From an uncultured Ignavibacteria bacterium (GTDB taxonomy: Bacteria; Bacteroidota; Ignavibacteria; Kapaibacteriales; UBA2268): DNA of 33,547 bases. The stretch is from assembly GCA_903862655.1 (NCBI GenBank), contig CAIOZA010000108.1:1-33547 (forward strand). Reading direction: 5' to 3'. The stretch's first letter is position 1, and each line of letters opens with the position of its first letter. Below are positions 4,481 to 15,625 of this stretch, piece by piece. Under the pieces are notes generated by a model. It was not told where the DNA came from. It saw only the letters and a list, made by a program, of their open reading frames with translations, and did no database searches. The position numbers and the translations under genes were made by a program.

Positions 4481-4993
4481 TTATTTCAAGATATTTAGTA
4501 TTGCTTGCTCCAATTCGATACCATGAAGATTCTTCGCTATAATCTTTCCTTTTCCATCAATCAATACATTGAATGGCAGATCTTGAATATTATATAGCTT
4601 TGCTACAGGAGATGCCCAAAATTGCAGATCGCTTACCTGAGTCCAGTTAATATTGAATTTCTTAATCACGCTCTGCCATGATTTTTTCTTATTATCCAAG
4701 GAAACTGCATAGATCTCAAATCCATTACCGACAGTAAAGACTGATGTTTTGTACTTTTTGTACAATTCAGCCAATTTTGGTTGTTCACTTACGCACGGAG
4801 CACACCAAGAAGCCCAAAAGTCAATTAACACAATCTTATTACTAAAGGAACTTAAAGACACAGTATCACCTTTAAGATTGGGCAGCTTTAATTCGGGTGC
4901 TATATCTCCTATGTTCAGACCTATAGACTGCGAGAAAGCACAAGAAAGACTCAAGCTCATCACAAAGGCTAACAATATTATTTTCGTCGTCAT
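4481..4993 (-). CDS. Periplasmic TlpA/ResA-type thioredoxin-fold protein
   Basis: From the ATG at 4993 the protein has 170 residues. An N-terminal signal peptide (MTTKIILLAFVMSLSLS, cleavage near AFSQ-S) sends it to the periplasm. An AhpC/TSA-Redoxin type thioredoxin fold follows, with the redox pair in FWASWCAPC (Cys64 and Cys67), and the conserved cis-Pro region as IQDLPFNVLID. Family members reduce disulfides in cytochrome c or other extracytoplasmic proteins. The frame extends upstream to a TTG at 5005, but the signal peptide fits the ATG start better. It is the last gene of the run that begins at 13739 and follows the rhodanese gene by 15 bases. Specific substrate unknown. Confidence 0.85.
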   Translation of the reverse strand: MTTKIILLAFVMSLSLSCAFSQSIGLNIGDIAPELKLPNLKGDTVSLSSFSNKIVLIDFWASWCAPCVSEQPKLAELYKKYKTSVFTVGNGFEIYAVSLDNKKKSWQSVIKKFNINWTQVSDLQFWASPVAKLYNIQDLPFNVLIDGKGKIIAKNLHGIELEQAILNILK

Positions 4994-5008
4994 CTGATCA
5001 ACCAAATA

Positions 5009-5458
5009 TTATTTCTTAACAGCATAACCTTTGTCAATCCAGTCAACTTTTATATTTTGAGGTAGATTTAAAAGTTTATGGTTTTTGAATCCCATTTCGT
5101 TCAATAAATTGAATACCGGTCTTACATTCGGGCATCTATCAAATGGGCAACAGCCACAATATATGATGATGAAAGTGTCCTTTGACAATTTACTGATATG
5201 CTGTTTGAGTTTCTTGATGCTTTCTTTGTCGCGACCCGGTCCGATATCAATTGAATTTTTGATAATATCCTGGAACCCTATACTGAAGATGACAGGTTGC
5301 GAAGCTTTTGGATTATTTAATATTTTGTTCAATTCAGCAGGTGCCAATAATTGAGTTGGTTTCCATGGTTCCTCAGCTTGTGCATTTGCGAATTGAAAAG
5401 CCAATACTATTATTGAGATAGCTAAAAAGGATAAAAAGTTATTTCTTAATGTTTTCAT
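5009..5458 (-). CDS. Periplasmic rhodanese-like protein with Cys-rich active loop
   Basis: A 149-residue protein with a signal peptide (MKTLRNNFLSFLAISIIVLA, cleavage after about ANA-26). The rest resembles a single rhodanese domain: a conserved IDIGPGRD-type segment, the strand FIIIYCGCCPFDRCP leading into the active loop, then helix VFNLLNEMGFKNHKLL and a C-terminal DWIDKGY. In rhodaneses the first Cys of the loop (here Cys101 after Tyr100) carries persulfide. This loop holds four cysteines (101, 103, 104, 109), more than usual, and could bind metal or shuttle sulfane sulfur. A good GGAGA lies 7 bases before the ATG. Neighbouring thioredoxin-fold genes suggest a shared thiol or sulfur pathway in the periplasm. 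Sulfur transfer is inferred from family. Confidence 0.75.
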   Translation of the reverse strand: MKTLRNNFLSFLAISIIVLAFQFANAQAEEPWKPTQLLAPAELNKILNNPKASQPVIFSIGFQDIIKNSIDIGPGRDKESIKKLKQHISKLSKDTFIIIYCGCCPFDRCPNVRPVFNLLNEMGFKNHKLLNLPQNIKVDWIDKGYAVKK

Positions 5459-5501
5459 TGTTATATCTCCAATTTCTAAAAATAATTTGTTTTAATTTGA
5501 G

Positions 5502-6098
5502 TTATTTAGTTCCGAATAGCCTGATAACTGATGCATTGCCAGAATGATACTGACCTTCGGATAAGTCAATATTTAATTTCTTTATATTCAAGTCTTTTAA
5601 TTCCCCGAAATGAAAAAGAAGCTCTTCTTCGGAATAAAGATTATTTATATCCTTGGGGCCGCCGGATGTACGCCCAATCTGTTCCTTAGAAAATACTTCA
5701 AGAAATAAAGTGCCGCCGTACTTTAAAAGGGATAAGAATTTATTGAAATATGATTCTCTAACTTCAAGCGGATAATGATTGAAAATAATAGCGACAGCAT
5801 CAAATTGTTCTTCATCGTACTCAAACTCTTCAACAGATGTCAAATGAAAATCAATTTCAACATTATTTTCGGAAGCTAGATTTAAGGCTTTTCTCCTGCC
5901 TTCTTCACTAAAATCAAAAGCAACTACATCCCACCCGCATTTAGCAGCATAAACAGAATTTCTACCTTCACCGTCTGCCGGGAGCAAGATCTTACCAGCA
6001 GTCATTGAATCAATTTGTTCTTTGAAAAAATGATTTGGTGTAGTTCCATACGAATAATCCTTGTTTGAATATCTTTGATTCCAGAAGTCTTTGCTCAT
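5502..6098 (-). CDS. Class I SAM-dependent methyltransferase (TehB-like)
   Basis: A 198-residue cytoplasmic protein. It starts with FWNQRYSNKDYSYGTTPNHFF, typical of TehB/thiopurine-methyltransferase-like proteins. Motif I is ILLPADGEGRNSVYAA (about 38-53), in which the usual GxGxG is replaced by DGEGRN, as in this subfamily; VVAFDFSEEG is motif II and AVAIIFNHYP motif IV. Related enzymes methylate thiol, selenium or tellurium compounds or small metabolites. A Shine-Dalgarno-like AAAGAT lies before the ATG. It sits between a TlpA lipoprotein and a rhodanese gene, which fits a substrate with a thiol or chalcogen, but the substrate cannot be read from the sequence. Confidence 0.8.
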   Translation of the reverse strand: MSKDFWNQRYSNKDYSYGTTPNHFFKEQIDSMTAGKILLPADGEGRNSVYAAKCGWDVVAFDFSEEGRRKALNLASENNVEIDFHLTSVEEFEYDEEQFDAVAIIFNHYPLEVRESYFNKFLSLLKYGGTLFLEVFSKEQIGRTSGGPKDINNLYSEEELLFHFGELKDLNIKKLNIDLSEGQYHSGNASVIRLFGTK

Positions 6099-6135
6099 AA
6101 TAATCTTTCTAATTGTGAGTAAGCAAATGAACGTC

Positions 6136-6741
6136 TTACTTCATCATTTTATTTAATTCTAAATCAAAGTCTGCTTTTGTCCTGGCTCCTTGGATAGAAT
6201 TAACGATTTTACCTTTGTCATTTATCAGAAATGTAGTTGGAACAGCTTCAATTCCTCCATAAGCATCGAATAAATCTCCGGTACCAATAATTACAGGATA
6301 GTTCATTTGATTGGTCACCCAAAATGTAGAGACTCCACTGAGTGCTTCTGTCATCGATGTTGTCCGTTCCATAGCGACACCGATTACAACCAAATTTTTA
6401 TTCCCAATTTCAGCTGCAATTTGCTCCAGGTCAGGCAATTCGCGTCTGCAAGGCGGGCACCATGTTCCCCAAAAATTCAGTAAAACAAATTTGCCTTTAG
6501 TAAACTCAGAAAATCTGACTTGCTTTCCATTCTGATCCCACGCAAAGTCAGCAGTAATTCCATTTTTGGGTGCTTCAGCTGAAATTAAGGGATAAACCTG
6601 AGCTACAACTTTTGGAGCATCACTTTGTGATGTTTTATCATCGGATATCGGTTTCTGATCTTCAGTTTTCTTTGCACAGGATGCAGTTAATAACGTCAAA
6701 CCTATTATAATTATCCAAATATTATTTTTGATAAATCTCAT
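6136..6741 (-). CDS. TlpA/ResA-like thioredoxin lipoprotein
   Basis: A 201-residue protein with a type II signal: membrane segment WIIIIGLTLLTA followed by lipobox LTAS-Cys22, so it should be lipid-anchored outside the cytoplasm. A linker rich in K, D and S (23-60) leads to a TlpA/ResA fold with FWGTWCPPCRRELP (Cys95, Cys98) and cis-Pro segment IEAVPTTFLIND. Members of this family keep extracytoplasmic cysteines reduced. The gene is preceded by AAGGAAA, a fair ribosome binding site. It lies 34 bases after the membrane thioredoxin gene, giving two adjacent extracytoplasmic reductant candidates; how electrons reach them is not shown (no CcdA/DsbD gene is in the window). Confidence 0.86.
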   Translation of the reverse strand: MRFIKNNIWIIIIGLTLLTASCAKKTEDQKPISDDKTSQSDAPKVVAQVYPLISAEAPKNGITADFAWDQNGKQVRFSEFTKGKFVLLNFWGTWCPPCRRELPDLEQIAAEIGNKNLVVIGVAMERTTSMTEALSGVSTFWVTNQMNYPVIIGTGDLFDAYGGIEAVPTTFLINDKGKIVNSIQGARTKADFDLELNKMMK

Positions 6742-6775
6742 TTATTTCCTTAGATATAATTTAGTTTAGATTATA

Positions 6776-7201
6776 TTAATTGTTACTATGTTTCTGGATT
6801 TGATCGAGTAAAAAGCCCTTCTGCTTCACACCAACAAATCGGTCAATTTCTTTTCCATTCTTCAATAAGATCAGAGTAGGAATGCTTCTGACAGAATATT
6901 TAGCCGCTAAATTACGCTGTTCATCAACATTAATCTTGCAAATTTTAACATTTCCGTCCACTTCATTTGCGACTTCGTTCAAGACCGGAGTCATCATTTT
7001 GCAGGGCATACACCATTCCGCCCAGAAATCAACCAATGCAACAGAATTTTTGGTTGTTTGCTGAAAATTTTTATCATTCAGATTGATTATCTTATCGCTC
7101 TCAGCGGCAGCTGGAGTATTCTTCATTTTCAAATATGAAAATATTATATAAATGACAAACGTAGCAGCCAGAGCTAAGATTATATATAGGATTGTATTCA
7201 T
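6776..7201 (-). CDS. Membrane-anchored thioredoxin
   Basis: 141 residues. An N-terminal hydrophobic helix (TILYIILALAATFVIYIIF, residues 3-21) is followed by KMKNTP and a linker, then a classical thioredoxin domain (about 36-139) with active site WAEWCMPC (Cys64, Cys67), KINVDEQRNLAAKYSVRSIPTL with the cis-Pro, and a C-terminal helix. The middle of the CxxC is Met-Pro, not the Gly-Pro of standard thioredoxin. Few positive charges lie before the helix and K/M-K after it, so topology is uncertain: the domain may face the cytoplasm. It follows the FmdB-type gene by 12 bases and precedes the TlpA lipoprotein gene, in a run of thiol-redox genes. Confidence 0.85.
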   Translation of the reverse strand: MNTILYIILALAATFVIYIIFSYLKMKNTPAAAESDKIINLNDKNFQQTTKNSVALVDFWAEWCMPCKMMTPVLNEVANEVDGNVKICKINVDEQRNLAAKYSVRSIPTLILLKNGKEIDRFVGVKQKGFLLDQIQKHSNN

Positions 7202-7213
7202 TATTTTATATTT

Positions 7214-7438
7214 TTAATTATTATTAAAACTACACATACCGGATGCACACGAAGGTGCGGTAGGAATATCAAAAGATTTCCCACCTGAAAATCCACTGAA
7301 ATTAGTGGCTGACATTAATTTCTTACTGTTTTCTGAACTACATGACGGACATTTTACTTCCGATTCCTGTTCGATTGTCTTTTGAAATACATCATACTTT
7401 GAATCGCAGTCATTGCACTTATAAGCATAAGTCGGCAT
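7214..7438 (-). CDS. FmdB-family zinc-ribbon protein
   Basis: 74 residues. The start MPTYAYKCNDC and the second pair CPSC form a four-Cys zinc ribbon (Cys8, Cys11, Cys30, Cys33), diagnostic of FmdB-type regulatory proteins (often called regulatory without proof). The C-terminal part holds an additional SCASGMCSF (Cys64, Cys69). It has a good ribosome binding site (AAAGGGA). The extra Cys pair resembles the GCTSGSC motif of the DUF6132 protein at the start of the same gene run. Its role is unknown; small zinc ribbons of this type may bind nucleic acid or protein. Confidence 0.85.
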   Translation of the reverse strand: MPTYAYKCNDCDSKYDVFQKTIEQESEVKCPSCSSENSKKLMSATNFSGFSGGKSFDIPTAPSCASGMCSFNNN

Positions 7439-7710: not shown

Positions 7711-8991
7711 TTAGTCTAATTCTTTTGCAATTGAGATCGCGGCAATAGTTCCGTCCGCTACAGCTGTAGTGATTTGTCTGTATTTCTTGCTAACAACATC
7801 GCCAACGGCATAAACATCCTTGATATTTGATCTCATATCCTCGTCGGTTTTAATGTATCCCCATTGGTCAGTTGTAAGTTCTTCTTTGAAGAGAGAAGTA
7901 TTTGGCATCATCCCGATAAATATGAACACACCATCGGATTCAATTTTTGACATTTCTTGTGTCTTTACATTCTCGATTTCTGTAATCATTTTGTCGCCGA
8001 CTTTAGTAAAAGCTCTCGGTTCAGTATCGTAAATAACACTTACTTTTGGATTCGCCAGTAATTTTTCCTGTGCTTGCTTATTCGCAGTGAGTTTATCGAA
8101 TTGATGAATCATAGTAATTTTACTTGCAAATCTTGTAATGAATTCAGCTTCTTCAACAGCCGAATTTCCGCCTCCAATCACTACGACTTCTTTATCGACA
8201 AAATACTTAGCATCACATGTTGCGCAATAGGAGATTCCTTTTCCTTTAAGCTCACGTTCACCTTTTGCACCGGTAAGATTAGGTGAAGTGCCGGTTGCAA
8301 TTATAATCTTTTTTGCTTTTAAGGTTTCAAATTCATCAATGACAATTTCTCTTTTTTCGAGGTCAACATTGGTAACGTCAACAGCAACTTTGTAAATTGT
8401 TCCGCAAAGCTTGGTTTGCTCTGACATATTATGAGACAAGAGATAACCCGGCTGAGGATCAATAAATCCAGGATAATTTGAGACCTCGTGTGTAGTGGAA
8501 ACCTGCCCCCCCGGGAGAGCAATATCGATCAATACTGTATTGACCTTAGCCTGGCAAAGATATAACCCTGCTGTTAAACCACCGGGACCACCACCGAGAA
8601 TTGCCACATCGAATTCGGTAACAGAGGGTTTGATCTGTGATTTAATGCTGTCTCTTTTTTCAGAAGAAATCATTAAATCGAGATTTTCAATAATCTCACT
8701 TCTTTTGATTCCACCGCTTAGTCTTTCCCCAATTTCTTTGCCATCATTAAAGAAAACAATTGTTGGAGATGATTTTATTTGTAATAAATCAGCTAGTTCT
8801 CTATTTCCCTGACGGAAAATCTTCAAGAACTTGATTTCTTCACCGTAAAGGTTAGATAGACCTTCGAATTTAGGAGCAAGTGCATCGCATGGAGGACATT
8901 CGGTTGAATAAAAATCAAGTGCTACATTACCACCTTGAATAACTTCATTCTCAAATTCACTGTTTGTAATCTCTTTCATTTCTTTTTCCAT
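7711..8991 (-). CDS. Thioredoxin-thioredoxin reductase fusion
   Basis: 426 residues in two domains. Residues about 5-108 form a thioredoxin domain with YSTECPPC (Cys32, Cys35) and SSPTIVFF (cis-Pro). Residues about 126-425 form an NADPH- and FAD-dependent thioredoxin reductase: FAD-binding GGGPGGLTAG (133-142), PGGQVSTT, the redox pair CATC (Cys256, Cys259), NADP-binding VVIGGGNSAVEEA and the C-terminal YAVGDV plus TTAVADGTIAA. The enzyme should move electrons from NADPH to its own thioredoxin domain and on to targets in the cytoplasm. This order (thioredoxin first) is the reverse of the reductase-thioredoxin fusion of Mycobacterium leprae. The ATG at 8991 is used here; ATG 8979 is possible. 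It lies 69 bases after the TonB receptor gene and before the DUF2892 gene. Confidence 0.92.
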   Translation of the reverse strand: MEKEMKEITNSEFENEVIQGGNVALDFYSTECPPCDALAPKFEGLSNLYGEEIKFLKIFRQGNRELADLLQIKSSPTIVFFNDGKEIGERLSGGIKRSEIIENLDLMISSEKRDSIKSQIKPSVTEFDVAILGGGPGGLTAGLYLCQAKVNTVLIDIALPGGQVSTTHEVSNYPGFIDPQPGYLLSHNMSEQTKLCGTIYKVAVDVTNVDLEKREIVIDEFETLKAKKIIIATGTSPNLTGAKGERELKGKGISYCATCDAKYFVDKEVVVIGGGNSAVEEAEFITRFASKITMIHQFDKLTANKQAQEKLLANPKVSVIYDTEPRAFTKVGDKMITEIENVKTQEMSKIESDGVFIFIGMMPNTSLFKEELTTDQWGYIKTDEDMRSNIKDVYAVGDVVSKKYRQITTAVADGTIAAISIAKELD

Positions 8992-9060: not shown

Positions 9061-11340
9061 TTAAAACAAAATATTTACTCCGAGTACGGGCAAAATTCCA
9101 AAATCTTCTCTGACATTAGTTTTAACAGTACCATCAGCATTTGCTTGAAAGGTATAAGAAATAACATTAGTCCTGTTATAGATATTCCATAGATCCAGAT
9201 AAGCATTAATTGACCAGGAACCGAGATTAAATGTTTTGTCCAAACGCACATCAATCTTATGATAATCAGGATATCTGGCTGAATTCCTGTCACCTTCTAC
9301 GATGAAGTTCATACCTTGTTTCTTAACTACTCCGATATATGGAGTATAAGGATTTCCGGTAGCGTACTGGAATTTTACCCCAAGATTCCATGATTTGAAA
9401 ATTTCATAACCAACAATCAAATTTAATATGTGAGGTCTGTCATACTCAAAAAGATATTCCGGTAGATTGATGTTATCTTGTCTTTTCGATACAGAATATG
9501 TATAGGACAAGCTACCGACAAATCCTTGTGTAAATTTCTTTTGAAGGTACAATTCAAATCCCTGAGAATATCCGATTCCGGTGTTGGAAATTATATTATT
9601 CAGATCATTTACCGTAAGAACACTGTTCATATCCTTGTAATAGGCTTCAACTGTCAGCCTTGTGTCATCGCTGATTCTTTGTTCAAACCCAATAATATAG
9701 TGAGTTGCCTTACTGCTTTTAAGAGTATGATTGGCAGTGTCGATTGCTATCTGGTATGCTGCTGGAGTCTGGTAAAAGATTCCATAAGCTGCATTTAATG
9801 TTGTATTCTGAAATAAATCATAAGATCCGGAAATTCTTGGACTTATATGGTTTTCCTTTGTCAGTGAACTATTGTCATACCTTAGTCCGGCGGTAAAAGC
9901 CAGATTCGACATAGGATGAATCGTGCTCTGAATAAATCCAAAATATTTTTCCGATAAATCTGGGAAATACGAAACAGAGGATGCAGGTATAAGCTGTCCA
10001 CTCTTAGTTGTATCTTCGGGACTCCAGATCGTGTGTTTAGAGTCAACGAATTTAACACCGGCTCCACCCTTGAATTCGAGCCATTTAGTGGTGATGTGAG
10101 TTATCTCAGTTTTTAGAGTATATTCATTTTCGCGGATATCATCTCCCTTTAAATTTTTGTTGATGGCTGTTCCCAAGCGAGTATTCCAACCATTACTCGA
10201 ATAGGAGAATGTTGTCAGTGAAAATGCTTTACTTGAAAACAGAGACTGCCAGTTAATACCAAAAGCCGCACCATAGTCATCTCTGGTCATGTATTCGTAT
10301 TTCGAAATGCCGGCATTTTCTTTAGTAAATCCGGCTTTATCAATCTGATCCAGATAATAAAAACCAATTAAGCTGATTTTATTAATATCATCCAAATTAT
10401 AAGTAACTTTACCAACTGCATCATAGTATCTGGGAGCTGCCGGTTTATTCATTGCAGCAGTAAGAATATCAAAAAAACCTCTTCGTAATGAGAAGATTAC
10501 TGAGCTGTTTTCTGTGATAGGACCATCAACAGTAATTCCGAAACCTGCAAGATTTAGATTAACATCGGTATTGAACATCTCTTTATTCCCATCATTGAGT
10601 GTCATATCAAAAACGGATGACATTTTATCTCCATATTTGGACGGGAAACCTCCGGTCAGAAAATCAACTTTTTTTAACAAAGATGGATTTATTACACTTA
10701 TAACCCCCATTGATTCACCCGATCTTGCAAAATGAATCGGATTATAAATTTCAATATCATCAAGCAGCGTTAAATTTTCATCAGGGCTTCCACCACGGAC
10801 AATAAGCTGAGCACTCTTTCCCCCGGCTGTAGAAACACCGGGTAGTGACTGCATAACACGGAATATATCTTCAGCTGAACCGGGAGAGCGCCTTATTTCC
10901 TGACTTTCGAGTGTCTTAATACTTGCAGGATTATCAATCAATTTCGGGAAATAATCTTCTGAAACTGTTACTCCTTCTGATTTAACTGAGATAGAATTCA
11001 TCTCACTGTTTACGGCTTTGTTTCTATTGGCAACAACTACAATATCAGCCAACGCAATCTGCTGGTAACCAACGCTACTGATTTTTAAAAGGTGGATTCC
11101 AACGGGTACTTTGTTAATCACAAAATAGCCTTTCTTATTTGTGATACTGCCAAGTTTAGTTCCATCAATCCTGATTGTTGCTGATATAATCGGTTGCTTT
11201 GTTTCGGCATTAATAACGGTACCCGAAATAGTTCCGGTTGATTCCTGAGCAATGGCAATATTTATATTAAATCCGATAAGCATTATTATTAATAATGTAG
11301 AGTATATTCCGGTAATAATTTTTATCATTCTTATAGTCAT
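9061..11340 (-). CDS. TonB-dependent outer-membrane receptor with carboxypeptidase-like N-terminal domain
   Basis: From ATG 11340 the protein has 759 residues. A signal peptide ends near IAIA-Q; a CarboxypepD_reg-like domain follows (GTISGTVINAETKQPIISATIRI into VGIHLLKISSVGYQ), then a plug domain (IRRSPGSAEDIFRVMQSLPG, LIVRGGSPDENLTLLDDIEI) and a 22-strand-type beta barrel ending VLGVNILF with the C-terminal Phe of outer-membrane barrels. Such receptors import ligands with energy from TonB-ExbBD; no susD or tonB is in the window. The frame reaches back to a TTG at 11367, which would overlap the radical SAM gene; the ATG leaves one base after the radical SAM stop (TAA, 11344-11342), so translation is likely coupled. 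The ligand is unknown; a modified peptide, a metal complex or a thiol compound would fit the operon. Confidence 0.9.
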   Translation of the reverse strand: MTIRMIKIITGIYSTLLIIMLIGFNINIAIAQESTGTISGTVINAETKQPIISATIRIDGTKLGSITNKKGYFVINKVPVGIHLLKISSVGYQQIALADIVVVANRNKAVNSEMNSISVKSEGVTVSEDYFPKLIDNPASIKTLESQEIRRSPGSAEDIFRVMQSLPGVSTAGGKSAQLIVRGGSPDENLTLLDDIEIYNPIHFARSGESMGVISVINPSLLKKVDFLTGGFPSKYGDKMSSVFDMTLNDGNKEMFNTDVNLNLAGFGITVDGPITENSSVIFSLRRGFFDILTAAMNKPAAPRYYDAVGKVTYNLDDINKISLIGFYYLDQIDKAGFTKENAGISKYEYMTRDDYGAAFGINWQSLFSSKAFSLTTFSYSSNGWNTRLGTAINKNLKGDDIRENEYTLKTEITHITTKWLEFKGGAGVKFVDSKHTIWSPEDTTKSGQLIPASSVSYFPDLSEKYFGFIQSTIHPMSNLAFTAGLRYDNSSLTKENHISPRISGSYDLFQNTTLNAAYGIFYQTPAAYQIAIDTANHTLKSSKATHYIIGFEQRISDDTRLTVEAYYKDMNSVLTVNDLNNIISNTGIGYSQGFELYLQKKFTQGFVGSLSYTYSVSKRQDNINLPEYLFEYDRPHILNLIVGYEIFKSWNLGVKFQYATGNPYTPYIGVVKKQGMNFIVEGDRNSARYPDYHKIDVRLDKTFNLGSWSINAYLDLWNIYNRTNVISYTFQANADGTVKTNVREDFGILPVLGVNILF

Positions 11341-11341
11341 T

Positions 11342-12661
11342 TTATTCAAAATATGCTGCAAAACCAAGCTCCAGCAATTCCTTTACTGGTCTGCAGTCTG
11401 GTGAGCATATTTTATTTGTGATATTTTTTGCAACAGATCCGCATCCTCCGCCACAAGCTAATTGTAAATTACATTCTTTGCAGGCATCAATTTCTGTAAC
11501 ATCTCTAGACTGCCATAGTTCGATTGTATCTTGCTCAAGTTTTATTTCAGGATAGAATGTTCCTAAAGATTCACCCGGTTTACCAACCGTCGCAGTGCAT
11601 GAGTAAATATGTCCTGTATAATCAAAAGCCCATTCAGTCTTACAGGCTGGGCAGGAATCGAATAATGGATTTGGCAGTTCGCCGTTTTCAAACAGAAATT
11701 TGCTTATTGAATAGGATGGTTCGTAGAATTTTGTAACCTGAGGATTGGACTTTATCATTTCATAAAGTTCTTCATAAAGGCTGATTCTGCTTAAAAGATT
11801 ATCCGAAGAAAACTGACAATGATGCAATTCATAATTTCTTCCCAATTGGGTTTTGAAGAACTGGCTGCTGGTCCATCCTTTTTCAATAGCAAAATTTGCT
11901 AAGTCAGGTATAGAATTGATGTTTTCTTTATCTACAACCATTCTGAGATTCACAACAAGATCGTTCTTCAAACATTCATCAATTCCATTCACAATTTGAT
12001 CAAATGTTGGATTTCCATTTTTTAACAATCTGCGTTTATTATGAATAGCTTCGGTACCATCCAGCGTTATCTGTATTTCGCGTACAGTTGCTGTTTTCAG
12101 AACATCAATATATTCCGTCAGATGAAAACCGTTTGTTACCAGTGAGAGTTCTATACCTGCTGAACTTGCTTTTTGAAATATATAAGCTATAATAGCTTTC
12201 TGCTTTTGTGTGTTCAAAAGCGGTTCACCACCGAAAATGGTTATATACTTCTTTTTCTCAGCAAAGGTCTTAGCAACATATTCAAAAAAAGAGTCCACAA
12301 TCTCAAAAGTAACCTCTGTCTTTGCATTTGTATATTCATCCTGATAGCAATAAGAACATGCAAAATTACAAGCATAATTAGGCACAAAAAATATCTGCAC
12401 TTCGTCATCATCTCGCTGATCCAGAAAATTAAGATATGCATTACGGTAATTTTTCTTTTCCAGCTCAGCATCAGTGAAATATCCTTTATTGATTAAATCA
12501 GGTAATAACACTGAATCGGATTGAAATTCCCTTCTCAAAGTTTCAATCTGCTCGAATTCAACTGAAGATAAAATATCAGCATTGCCTGACAGTAGATTAA
12601 CTATGTAATACTTGTCAGAGTCCTTGATTTTTGAAGATATGTTGTATTTCGAGTAATTCAT
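11342..12661 (-). CDS. Radical SAM/SPASM peptide-maturase-type enzyme
   Basis: 439 residues. Residues 1-90 form an N-terminal part without Cys, starting YYIVNLLSG, like the leader-contact part of peptide maturases. The radical SAM core has the 4Fe-4S motif CNFACSYC (Cys98, Cys102, Cys105), a GGEPLLN segment for SAM binding and VTNGFHLT. The C-terminal SPASM domain shows SCPACKTEWAFDYTGHIYSC, then CKECNLQLACGGGC and CSPDC, enough Cys for two auxiliary clusters. Enzymes of this class make thioether, C-C or epimerised links in ribosomal peptides or act as sulfatase activators; no sulfatase is in the window. The candidate peptide gene lies only 12 bases upstream, and the TonB receptor gene starts one base after the stop. 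The exact chemistry is not predictable. Confidence 0.88.
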   Translation of the reverse strand: MNYSKYNISSKIKDSDKYYIVNLLSGNADILSSVEFEQIETLRREFQSDSVLLPDLINKGYFTDAELEKKNYRNAYLNFLDQRDDDEVQIFFVPNYACNFACSYCYQDEYTNAKTEVTFEIVDSFFEYVAKTFAEKKKYITIFGGEPLLNTQKQKAIIAYIFQKASSAGIELSLVTNGFHLTEYIDVLKTATVREIQITLDGTEAIHNKRRLLKNGNPTFDQIVNGIDECLKNDLVVNLRMVVDKENINSIPDLANFAIEKGWTSSQFFKTQLGRNYELHHCQFSSDNLLSRISLYEELYEMIKSNPQVTKFYEPSYSISKFLFENGELPNPLFDSCPACKTEWAFDYTGHIYSCTATVGKPGESLGTFYPEIKLEQDTIELWQSRDVTEIDACKECNLQLACGGGCGSVAKNITNKICSPDCRPVKELLELGFAAYFE

Positions 12662-12673
12662 TTAGTCTTACAA

Positions 12674-12787
12674 TTAATCGTGACATCCAGCTTTGATAAC
12701 AGAAGTTTTTGCACAGCATTGAGCATTTTTCTGATTTGTATTAGCTTTGGATGATGTTTGAATTTTTTTCTTAATTAATGTTTTCAT
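12674..12787 (-). CDS. Small Cys-containing peptide, candidate radical SAM substrate (RiPP precursor)
   Basis: A 37-codon gene too short for usual ORF cut-offs. It starts MKTLIKKKIQTSSK and ends with QCCAKTSVIKAGCHD, so a Lys-rich, Ser/Thr/Asn-rich leader-like half is followed by a Cys-bearing core (Cys24, Cys25, Cys35) and a terminal His-Asp. AAAGGA lies about 8 bases before the ATG, a good ribosome binding site. It fits exactly between the ArsM-like gene (15 bases) and the radical SAM gene (12 bases), both on the same strand, which is the standard position of a RiPP precursor. No signal peptide or membrane segment. Size, position and the concentration of Cys support the call; no family is recognised and modification is inferred. 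An alternative is a small Cys-based metal- or metalloid-binding peptide that is not modified. Confidence 0.72.
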   Translation of the reverse strand: MKTLIKKKIQTSSKANTNQKNAQCCAKTSVIKAGCHD

Positions 12788-12802: not shown

Positions 12803-13453
12803 TTAGTTTAAAATTTGTTCTGCATTTTTGTTCTTTATGCTTTTAATAGTTATGCTAACCACATCGATCTTACCTTTGGAATAAGGTTGTGATTCTTCAA
12901 GAATATCAATCTTGGTGAATCCTGCTTTATGCAAAACCGACATGTAATCTTCTTTTGTGATTGATCCTGCCCAACACTCAGCTACTGCTGCAGGATCATT
13001 TCTATATTCATCAGGCACTGTATCGGTTGAATAAATATCACTGATAACAAAGCGGCCATTGTCTTTCAGTACGCGGAAAATTTCATTCCAAACAGCTTGC
13101 TTGTCTGTAGCGTGATTCAATGTGCAATTTGAGATTATAAGATCAATAGAAATATCGGGCAAAGGAATTACTTCCAACTCACTTTTGATAAATTCGACAT
13201 TGCTAATGTCAAACTTCTCAGCATTCTTCCTGGCTTTGTCAAGCATTCCGTCGGTTATATCCAGACCATAAGAAAAGCCAGTCGGACCTACTTCCTCAGC
13301 CATTCTGATTACATCGGTTCCTCTTCCGCTCCCAAGATCTAAACAAACCTCTCCTGTTTTCGGTTGAGCATAATCAATTGCTCCCCCGCATGACAAACAG
13401 CATGAGCTTTCCGCTAATTTTGTATATCTTTCTTCTATCGCTATCTGAGCCAT
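12803..13453 (-). CDS. ArsM-like SAM-dependent methyltransferase
   Basis: From ATG 13453 (AAAGGA about 8 bases upstream) the protein has 216 residues; the open frame reaches 13510, but the extra residues lack homologous character. SAM-binding motif I is VCLDLGSGRGTDVIR (36-50), followed by motif II YGLDITDGML. The pattern matches arsenite S-adenosylmethyltransferase: VGPTG, MLDKARKNAEK, SNVEF, SNC, FVISDIYS, and the late ECWAGSITKEDY. The three Cys positions that bind As(III) in ArsM are present: in SCGG (Cys22, with extra Cys18 and Cys19), SNC (Cys110) and ECWAG (Cys160). In the third block SNC is followed by TLNH, where ArsM usually has VINL. Arsenic methylation is therefore plausible, but the next gene is a Cys peptide and no arsR, acr3 or arsC is nearby, so a peptide or thiol-bound substrate is also possible. 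Confidence 0.82.
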   Translation of the reverse strand: MAQIAIEERYTKLAESSCCLSCGGAIDYAQPKTGEVCLDLGSGRGTDVIRMAEEVGPTGFSYGLDITDGMLDKARKNAEKFDISNVEFIKSELEVIPLPDISIDLIISNCTLNHATDKQAVWNEIFRVLKDNGRFVISDIYSTDTVPDEYRNDPAAVAECWAGSITKEDYMSVLHKAGFTKIDILEESQPYSKGKIDVVSITIKSIKNKNAEQILN

Positions 13454-13481
13454 TATTATATCCTTTATATTCCTATTATTA

Positions 13482-13739
13482 TTAACATACTGAACATGGT
13501 CTCTTGACAAAGACTACTCCTAACAAACTGCCGATCAAAGTGCTCGAAACCGGATTACTAGCTAAAGCACATGAGCCGGATGTACAGCCTACAAAAGTAT
13601 AGTATAAAAACCCGGCTAATCCGCCTATTACTATTCCCAGAGCGAGCTTATATTTTCGGGCAAAGCCAATAAATTTATTCTGATTCTGAGTATCTTTGGA
13701 GGTTTCGCATGTATTTTGCATCATTTTCTTAAATAACAT
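13482..13739 (-). CDS. DUF6132-family small membrane protein
   Basis: About 85 residues from ATG 13739; ATGs at 13724 and 13721 are also possible starts, and no clear ribosome binding site decides. After a polar N-terminal part, a hydrophobic helix KLALGIVIGGLAGFLYYTF leads to VGCTSGSCALASNP, the signature of the family, then a second helix SSTLIGSLLGVVFV and a C-terminal RPCSVC. The Cys in GCTSGSC and the terminal CSVC could bind metal or form disulfides. Family function is unknown. It is the first gene of the long minus-strand run, 28 bases before the ArsM-like gene. Confidence 0.8.
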   Translation of the reverse strand: MLFKKMMQNTCETSKDTQNQNKFIGFARKYKLALGIVIGGLAGFLYYTFVGCTSGSCALASNPVSSTLIGSLLGVVFVKRPCSVC

Positions 13740-13766
13740 TCTTAAAAACAAATATTTCTGTCAATT

Positions 13767-13916: not shown

Positions 13917-14330
13917 ATGTTATTCAATAATGATCTTACTGAGGCTCGTTTAAATGAATTATTTACCGAAAACGATAAATGTTTGGAGTTTTTGGCTGAG
14001 CTAAAATGGGCTGATGGTTTTGAATGTCGGAAATGTGGAAATAAGAATTACTGTCCTGGAAAATCACCGCATTCCAGAAGATGTACTAAATGTAAAAGTG
14101 AAGAATCCGCGACTACAGGAACGATTTTCCATCACTGTAGATTCGATATAAATAAAGCCTTCTATATAGCTTACTCTGTCTGCAAGAGCAATTCAGACAT
14201 ATCTTCCTATGAATTTGCAAGAAGATTATCCTTAAGGCAGATGACTTGCTGGAAATTCAAGGATAAACTAAAAAAAGTTATTGAAGCTAATGGTGAATTA
14301 TCCGAAAATTGGATTGAAATTTTGAAATAA
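13917..14330 (+). CDS. Stand-alone IS1595/ISXO2-type zinc-ribbon protein
   Basis: 137 residues. The stretch LFTENDKCLEFLAELKWADGF followed by CRKCGNKNYC and RRCTKCKSEES is the transposase zinc-ribbon of IS1595-family elements (two CxxC pairs), followed by an HTH-like part in which DISSYEFARRLSLRQMTCWKFKDKL is conserved. The DDE/ISXO2 catalytic domain that follows in a full transposase (about 300 residues) is absent: the frame stops at TAA 14328-14330, five bases before the IS4 inverted repeat. Similar short proteins are known from Bacteroidota, so it may be a domesticated DNA-binding protein or a transposase cut off by the IS4 element. Its own reading frame is intact and in the opposite direction to the redox operon. 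Confidence 0.72.
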   Translation: MLFNNDLTEARLNELFTENDKCLEFLAELKWADGFECRKCGNKNYCPGKSPHSRRCTKCKSEESATTGTIFHHCRFDINKAFYIAYSVCKSNSDISSYEFARRLSLRQMTCWKFKDKLKKVIEANGELSENWIEILK

Positions 14331-14335
14331 GAGAT

Positions 14336-15625
14336 TAGTGTCAACTAAAACATCAATATTGTTCTTTGTAATCATTATAAAATCTGAAGTTTACGAGAAA
14401 AAGACTTACGTGACGATTTGAATTTATTATTTAATCTGGAATCATTAGATTTCAGAAATGAATACAGGTAAATACGTATTTTCGCAACTTGTTGAATTTT
14501 TGCCACAACGAGTTTTTGACGGCATTGTCACGAAATATGGAGGCAATAAATATGTAATGCATTTCACTTGCTGGAATCATTTGCTGGCAATGATGTTTGG
14601 ACAACTAACGCGCCGTGATAGTTTACGTGATTTGATTGTAGCTCTTGAAGCTCATTATCGAAAAAGTTATCACTTAGGTTTTGGTAAGAATATTACCAGA
14701 AGTAATCTATCCAAAGCAAACGAAAATCGTAACAGCAAAATATTTGAAGAATATACCTATTATATGATTGACATTGCACGTAGAAAGAGAGCCAATAACG
14801 ACTTTGAGATTCAAGGTAAAGTCTATGCTTTCGATTCAACTACAATTGATTTATGTCTAAGTGTATTTTGGTGGGCAAAATTTCGTAAACATAAGGCAGT
14901 TATAAAGCTTCATACGTTATATGACATTAGCACTCAAATACCAGCGTTTATACATATAACAAAAGCCTCAGTCAATGATATTAATGCTATGGATGTAATT
15001 CCATATGAGTATGGTGCTTATTATGTTTTTGACCGTGGATATGTCGATTATGCAAGGCTTTATAGCATTTGTAGTCACTCAGCATATTTTGTTGTTCGAG
15101 CTAAAAAACCTTAAATTCAAATTTAATCGACTCAACGAAGTCAAAGAAAACACAGGAGTAATTTGCGATCAAGTAGGAATACTAACAGGGTTATATTCGT
15201 CTAAAGATTATCCCAATGAAATTCGCTAGGTTATTTATTATGATAAAGAAAGTAATAAAACGTTTGTTTATTTGACTGACAATATGGAGCTTACTTCTGT
15301 GCAAATTGCATTACTTTATAAAAATCGTTGGCAAGTGGAATTATTTTTCAAATGGATTAAACAGCATTTAAAAATTAAATCCTTTTGGGGAACAAGTGAA
15401 AATGCTGTAAGAACTCAAATATATTATGCAATAATAACTTATTGCTTAGTTGCTATAATCGAGAAAGACCTTATGATAAATCGTTCAACATACGAAGTCT
15501 TGCAGGTTTTCAGTATTTCGTTACTGGATAAAACGCCTATTAATGAGCTATTTGATAGGTCAGATTTTAATGCTGTCAAAGAACTTTGTTTAAATCAATT
15601 ATCCCTAAATTTTTAGTGGCCACTA
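14336..15625 (+). mobile_element. IS4-family insertion sequence, inactive
   Basis: An element of about 1,290 bases bounded by imperfect terminal inverted repeats: TAGTGTCAACTAAAA at 14336-14350 and TTTTAGTGGCCACTA at 15611-15625, which match at 13 of 15 positions when one is reversed. It contains a single broken transposase gene. I could not find a convincing target-site duplication in the flanks, so either the duplication has decayed or the exact ends differ by a few bases. Confidence 0.75.
14458..15616 (+). pseudogene. IS4-family DDE transposase, frameshifted and with a stop
   Basis: The N-terminal 218 residues (MNTGKYVFSQLVEFLP, the DUF4372-type start, then YAFDSTTIDLCLSVFWWAKFRKHKAVIKLH with the first catalytic Asp, and YVFDRGYVDY with the second) end at TAA 15112-15114. 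The protein goes on in the next frame: LKFKFNRLNEVKENTGVICD, an in-frame TAG at 15227-15229, then VIYYDKESNKTFVYLTD and the late block YKNRWQVELFFKWIKQHLKIKSFWG with the catalytic Glu (YREK-type region) up to TAG 15614-15616. One extra A in the A6 run at about 15102-15107 explains the shift. With both lesions repaired the product would be about 385 residues, the usual length. Dead unless both changes are sequence errors. Confidence 0.88.

Follow-up and report, generated by a model that had tools for sequence, protein, structure and literature searches.

A strictly conserved three-cysteine peptide gene between ArsM-like and radical SAM/SPASM genes in Bacteroidota: a probable precursor of an undescribed RiPP

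The small gene lying between an ArsM-like and a radical SAM/SPASM gene in the window, i.e. the whole stretch of 33,547 nucleotides analysed here, encodes a peptide which we regard with considerable confidence as the precursor of an undescribed RiPP, with the adjoining radical SAM/SPASM enzyme as its putative maturase. What the comparison of sequences supports is a conserved coding gene, its strict co-occurrence and linkage with the radical SAM gene, and the class of the enzyme; that the peptide is modified at all, and by which type of bond, is inferred. The peptide belongs to a four-gene system, defined here, which comprises the ArsM-like enzyme, the peptide, the radical SAM/SPASM enzyme and a thioredoxin-thioredoxin reductase (Trx-TrxR) fusion, and occurs in Bacteroidota and rarely in other phyla. 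This system is best read as a new RiPP family which has an unusual, dedicated partner in the ArsM-like enzyme, its chemistry and role being inferred. Its four members in the window are:

12674..12787, minus strand: putative precursor peptide of 37 aa, with a basic leader-like N-terminus (MKTLIKKK), a variable linker and the C-terminal stretch AQCCAKTSxxxxGCHD
12803..13453, minus strand: dedicated ArsM-like SAM methyltransferase, probable start ATG 13453 (the longest ORF runs from TTG 13510)
11342..12661, minus strand: putative radical SAM/SPASM peptide maturase of 439 aa, assigned from its sequence, NCBIfam and Pfam matches and CteB-like fold
7711..8991, minus strand: thioredoxin (CPPC)-thioredoxin reductase (CATC) fusion of 426 aa, downstream of the radical SAM gene

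The peptide ORF (12674-12787) starts with ATG and its 37 codons encode MKTLIKKKIQTSSKANTNQKNAQCCAKTSVIKAGCHD, with cysteines at positions 24, 25 and 35. It stands 15 bases from the ArsM-like ORF (12803-13510) and 12 from the radical SAM ORF (11342-12661), the three sharing the minus strand, and in these respects the description given in the earlier note was confirmed from the sequence. The ribosome binding site which that note had called good is present and purine-rich in the upstream sequence (AAAAAAAGGATTGTAAAATG), but is only moderate. The GTDB genome collection was scanned with the radical SAM protein, yielding 80 loci at 56-65% identity; two further loci with more distant radical SAM proteins, L006 (34% identity) and L007 (29%), are without such a peptide and were not used. 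A complete peptide homologue on the same strand was found in 75/80 loci, usually upstream of the radical SAM gene and no more than ~200 bases from it, hence the conserved small Cys ORF that the earlier note had proposed to look for next to close radical SAM homologues does exist, and the condition by which that note would have been refuted turned out strongly in its support. The five loci without a complete adjacent peptide are all accounted for: in L050 the peptide motif is severed by the contig end, in L055 and L081 the contig starts inside or at the radical SAM gene, and in L013 and L018 the peptide is sited elsewhere in the genome.

Within the system the peptide measures 31-48 residues, with hardly any change in its C-terminal part from one phylum to another. 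Across 30 aligned sequences M1 and ten core residues (A22, C24, C25, A26, K27, S29, G34, C35, H36 and D37) are invariant. For the last 15 codons pN/pS is 0.111 (76 distinct DNA sequences), and the nine unvarying residues among these 15 are each encoded by at least two synonymous codons in the same set. The peptide frame is open in 75/75 plus-strand homologues, the other two frames in 0/75 and 8/75. A chance ORF between two genes might be suspected, given that it is short and has no database family, but such an ORF would not leave 75 homologues under purifying selection; the 75/80 loci, the invariant residues, the pN/pS of 0.11 and the frame openness leave this explanation with practically no room, and we take the ORF, on this comparative evidence, to be a real, strictly conserved gene. 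No family in Pfam or NCBIfam was matched by the peptide, and a literature search mostly without subscription journals gave no text match to its core motif, in line with the earlier note, which had recognised no described family. Within the same coverage, neither the Bacteroidales RiPP literature (PMC10352776) nor that on ArsM with SPASM enzymes describes the system; an earlier description is not excluded.

Presence and absence of the two genes go together. In a phylum sample (n=395) strong peptide matches and the radical SAM protein occur in the same six genomes (Fisher p 2e-13), and in an order sample (n=295, the order of G531, the genome holding L013) the radical SAM protein occurs in 34 genomes, the peptide in 34 and both in 33 (Fisher p 2e-41), the p values being uncorrected for relatedness. 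Overall, both are present in 39/41 sampled genomes having either gene. In the one genome with radical SAM but no peptide match (G801), the gene is truncated at base 5 of a contig. The peptide-only genome (G575), in which no radical SAM homologue was found, carries the peptide (L137:7296-7394) next to a SAM methyltransferase other than the ArsM-like one, with Trx/TrxR and Crp genes nearby; here the peptide may also act unmodified, or the genome may be incomplete. The conserved peptide and its co-occurrence with the enzyme (6/6 and 33/34 genomes) lend support to the RiPP precursor proposed by the earlier note, although modification remains an inference. Three genomes (G231, G421 and G459) gave weak matches to the peptide, at E values of about 0.002-0.005, which lie in unrelated regions and were dismissed as chance. 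A separate observation concerns G536, where a second peptide copy (L140:5018-5125) lies away from ArsM and radical SAM genes, followed by DUF1847 and DUF302 genes and with an FCSD-like gene divergent.

The radical SAM protein shows the CxxxCxxC motif (C98/C102/C105) and the auxiliary-cluster cysteines C337, C340, C355, C394, C397, C403, C407 and C423; the three first and the eight C-terminal ones are kept in at least 97% of 84 radical SAM sequences. It matches Pfam Radical_SAM with 85.9 bits, and among NCBIfam models (bits/cut-off) CefB NF038107 (170.7/600), TIGR04463 (138.8/525), PapB NF047865 (137.6/340), Clo7bot (110.4/600) and SCIFF TIGR03974 (84.7/425), all scores being far below the cut-offs, so that membership of a named NCBIfam maturase family was rejected. 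Since the closest models are CefB, TIGR04463 and PapB, which match all 25 members tested, the enzyme sits with maturases whose peptides are Cys-rich or carry thioethers, but belongs to no named family. Its AlphaFold model (mean pLDDT 76) is of low confidence around residues 315-341 and 401-410, i.e. around the auxiliary-cluster region, and over residues 4-439 it matches the fold of CteB (5why; Z 22.4, rmsd 3.9 over 373 residues), which is also the best PDB sequence match. The first 85 residues are modelled as beta3-alpha3, as in RRE domains that bind leaders. A Pfam search of the protein gave no RRE/PqqD match. The VIA-align list mostly spans residues 82-426, thus the N-terminal domain was only weakly tested by it; from its secondary structure and the CteB alignment starting at residue 4, we consider that it is likely, but not proven, to be an RRE.

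Comparison with known systems places this one close to several and within none. CefB, the Cys-every-fifth maturase, resembles the radical SAM protein over 1-438 and is its best NCBIfam match, but the present precursor does not show a Cys at every fifth residue. PapB, a ranthipeptide enzyme, shares a similar radical SAM/SPASM core, whereas the present peptide is devoid of a Cys-X3-Asp motif and the partner genes differ. CteB, the SCIFF thioether maturase (PDB 5wgg/5why), matches in fold over the full length, yet with 17% identity, and the SCIFF precursor has six Cys where the present peptide has three. Concerning the pairing with an ArsM, the radical SAM enzyme of the arsinothricin cluster is, to our knowledge, not a SPASM peptide maturase, and we know of no precursor peptide in that cluster. 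The likeness lies in the adjacency of ArsM and a radical SAM enzyme in this natural-product cluster, arsQML (PMC8552651).

The ArsM-like gene lies just upstream in 64/66 testable loci. The exceptions are L013 and L018, where neither peptide nor ArsM adjoins the radical SAM gene, an ArsM-peptide pair being found elsewhere in the same genomes. The enzyme is of the same sequence family as canonical ArsM (PRK11873; PDB 4fr0/4kw7), with three Cys positions common to both: its C41, C129 and C179 align with the arsenite-coordinating C72, C174 and C224 of the canonical PDB chain. It nevertheless forms a separate group, since the subfamily scores 345-390 bits in exactly the six cassette genomes of the 395 and the next best match reaches 166. 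It also lacks the N-terminal ~40 residues (a Cys region) of the canonical enzyme, its C-terminal domain is missing a section, and it has further Cys of its own and scores 210.7 bits against PRK11873, under the cut-off of 263. The missing N-terminal region, the three Cys kept, the own Cys added and the gap in score mark it as a specialised paralogue, in which the site for a soft atom seems to be preserved; methylation activity is inferred. A separate canonical ArsM (~280 aa) is found, among the matches listed, in 5/6 cassette genomes, which disfavours the cassette enzyme as the ordinary arsenite methyltransferase of these genomes. A dedicated, uncharacterised branch of arsenic methyltransferases is here tied to a peptide, so that its methylation target becomes directly testable. 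It should be noted that the window's ArsM-like protein is without the C-terminal CxC (12803-12850, minus strand) present in nearly all aligned relatives.

The Trx-TrxR fusion is found downstream in 70/70 loci with enough sequence. Of 18 genomes searched, the six with the cassette were alone in giving full-length matches to it (at least 529 bits), the others showing plain thioredoxin reductase. Judged from these comparisons, the system includes the ArsM-like gene and the Trx-TrxR fusion just as much as the peptide and the radical SAM gene, a point that the earlier note had missed. Three further genes lie close by in the window:

13482..13751, minus strand: DUF6132-like small membrane protein, a frequent first operon gene (32/66 loci)
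13917..14330, plus strand: IS1595-type zinc-ribbon protein without the transposase catalytic domain, divergent (18/57 loci)
9061..11367, minus strand: TonB-dependent receptor, between the radical SAM and Trx-TrxR genes

The TonB-dependent receptor is not a core part of the system, because its position there is seen in this window only. Neighbours that recur across the loci include DUF6132, DUF302, DUF1847, Crp-type regulators and SQR/FCSD-like flavoproteins, and those of sulfur type are OsmC, sulfur transport, TauE, SQR/FCSD-like and methionine gamma-lyase, a neighbourhood which, from its gene content, points to sulfur and redox functions. The first 25 neighbour families listed contain no ars gene family, though single ars genes near some loci could be missed, and no peptidase, exporter or immunity gene recurs next to the peptide in the clusters seen. 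Homologues of the IS1595-type protein, which may be a domesticated piece of a transposase with a regulatory role, also occur beside ArsM-peptide pairs apart from radical SAM genes.

In the mechanism that we propose, an RRE-like domain of the radical SAM enzyme would bind the basic leader (MKSLIKKK), and a radical reaction within the invariant C-terminal part QCCAKTSxxxxGCHD would form a Cys non-alpha thioether, with Asp37 or Ser29 as candidate acceptors. Possible sites are Cys25-Ser29 (CX3S) and Cys35-His-Asp37, the latter because PapB, which makes Cys-Xn-Asp thioethers, accepts n = 0-6 (PMC9413430), a range that would include C35-H36-D37. That the mature peptide carries a non-alpha thioether is an inference with about even chances of being right. 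The mature peptide would then stay intracellular as a thiol-bearing ligand or a redox or cofactor-like peptide, with the Trx-TrxR fusion maintaining its thiols in the reduced form. As the methylation target of the ArsM-like enzyme we envisage either a soft atom (arsenic, sulfur or selenium) bound to the cysteines of the peptide, or the peptide itself. Taken whole, this working model is inferred and tentative, with the balance somewhat against its holding in every part. Action inside the producer is proposed because the core is unvarying and because of the lack of recurring peptidase, exporter and immunity genes in the clusters seen. The fixed C-terminal 15 residues argue for a cofactor or a metal/thiol peptide, not a variable bioactive one, which the earlier note had likewise overlooked, and, because the precursor is so conserved, the product is probably one fixed compound. 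Fixed RiPPs such as PQQ and mycofactocin turned out to be cofactors. In our view an undescribed peptide-modifying pathway of anaerobic bacteria very probably has this peptide as its substrate.

Some of these observations can be read otherwise. The peptide could be a small unmodified metallo- or thiol peptide, a metal(loid) chaperone whose ligands would be three Cys, His and Asp, while the radical SAM enzyme acts on another substrate in the same pathway. The invariant CC...CHD resembles a ligand set, two genomes have ArsM and peptide side by side at a site away from the radical SAM gene, and G575 has the peptide with no detectable radical SAM; however, the two genomes in question, those of L013 and L018, still contain the radical SAM gene, presence and absence of peptide and enzyme match near-perfectly, and the best scores of the enzyme are against peptide-maturase models, all of which makes this reading very unlikely. 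It is likewise most improbable that the product is a secreted antimicrobial ranthipeptide of bacteriocin type: radical SAM/SPASM maturases do commonly make such peptides, but the near-constancy of the C-terminal part between phyla speaks against it, as do the lack of a recurring adjacent peptidase or exporter in the clusters seen and the nature of the partners, which are redox and methyltransferase enzymes.

Other readings turn on arsenic. In an arsenic detoxification operon, ArsM would methylate arsenite and the peptide would replace glutathione as arsenite carrier; the three arsenite-binding Cys of ArsM are retained, and Trx-TrxR could, by inference, provide the reductant which ArsM enzymes need. 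The recurrent neighbours listed are, however, of sulfur type with none of them ars, and the canonical ArsM found separately in 5/6 cassette genomes among the matches listed implies that the cassette enzyme is not the ordinary one, so that detoxification is unlikely without being negligible. A RiPP cofactor or carrier bearing a metalloid, in which the ArsM-like and radical SAM enzymes work on the same peptide and arsenic or a methylated soft atom is bound or attached, is decidedly unlikely in our estimate. The arsenic link is suggested by homology alone, and the genomic setting fits sulfur too.

The proposed RiPP system is carried nearly always by metagenome-assembled Bacteroidota, many with isolate names that indicate lakes or other waters, and the habitats of many carriers are probably anoxic. 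A Myxococcota contig (67% GC) has ArsM, peptide, radical SAM and Trx-TrxR all present, and the difference from the 34% GC of the window speaks against simple mis-binning of Bacteroidota DNA; a less clear Spirochaetaceae contig (39% GC) also has all four. Finally, in the window itself, two ORFs on the plus strand near the cassette (14458-15114 and 15272-15616) resemble fragments of one broken DDE transposase, and downstream, at 4481-7438 on the minus strand, lies a group of thiol genes encoding an FmdB-type zinc ribbon, a thioredoxin, TlpA/ResA-like proteins, a TPMT/TehB-like methyltransferase and a rhodanese-like protein.
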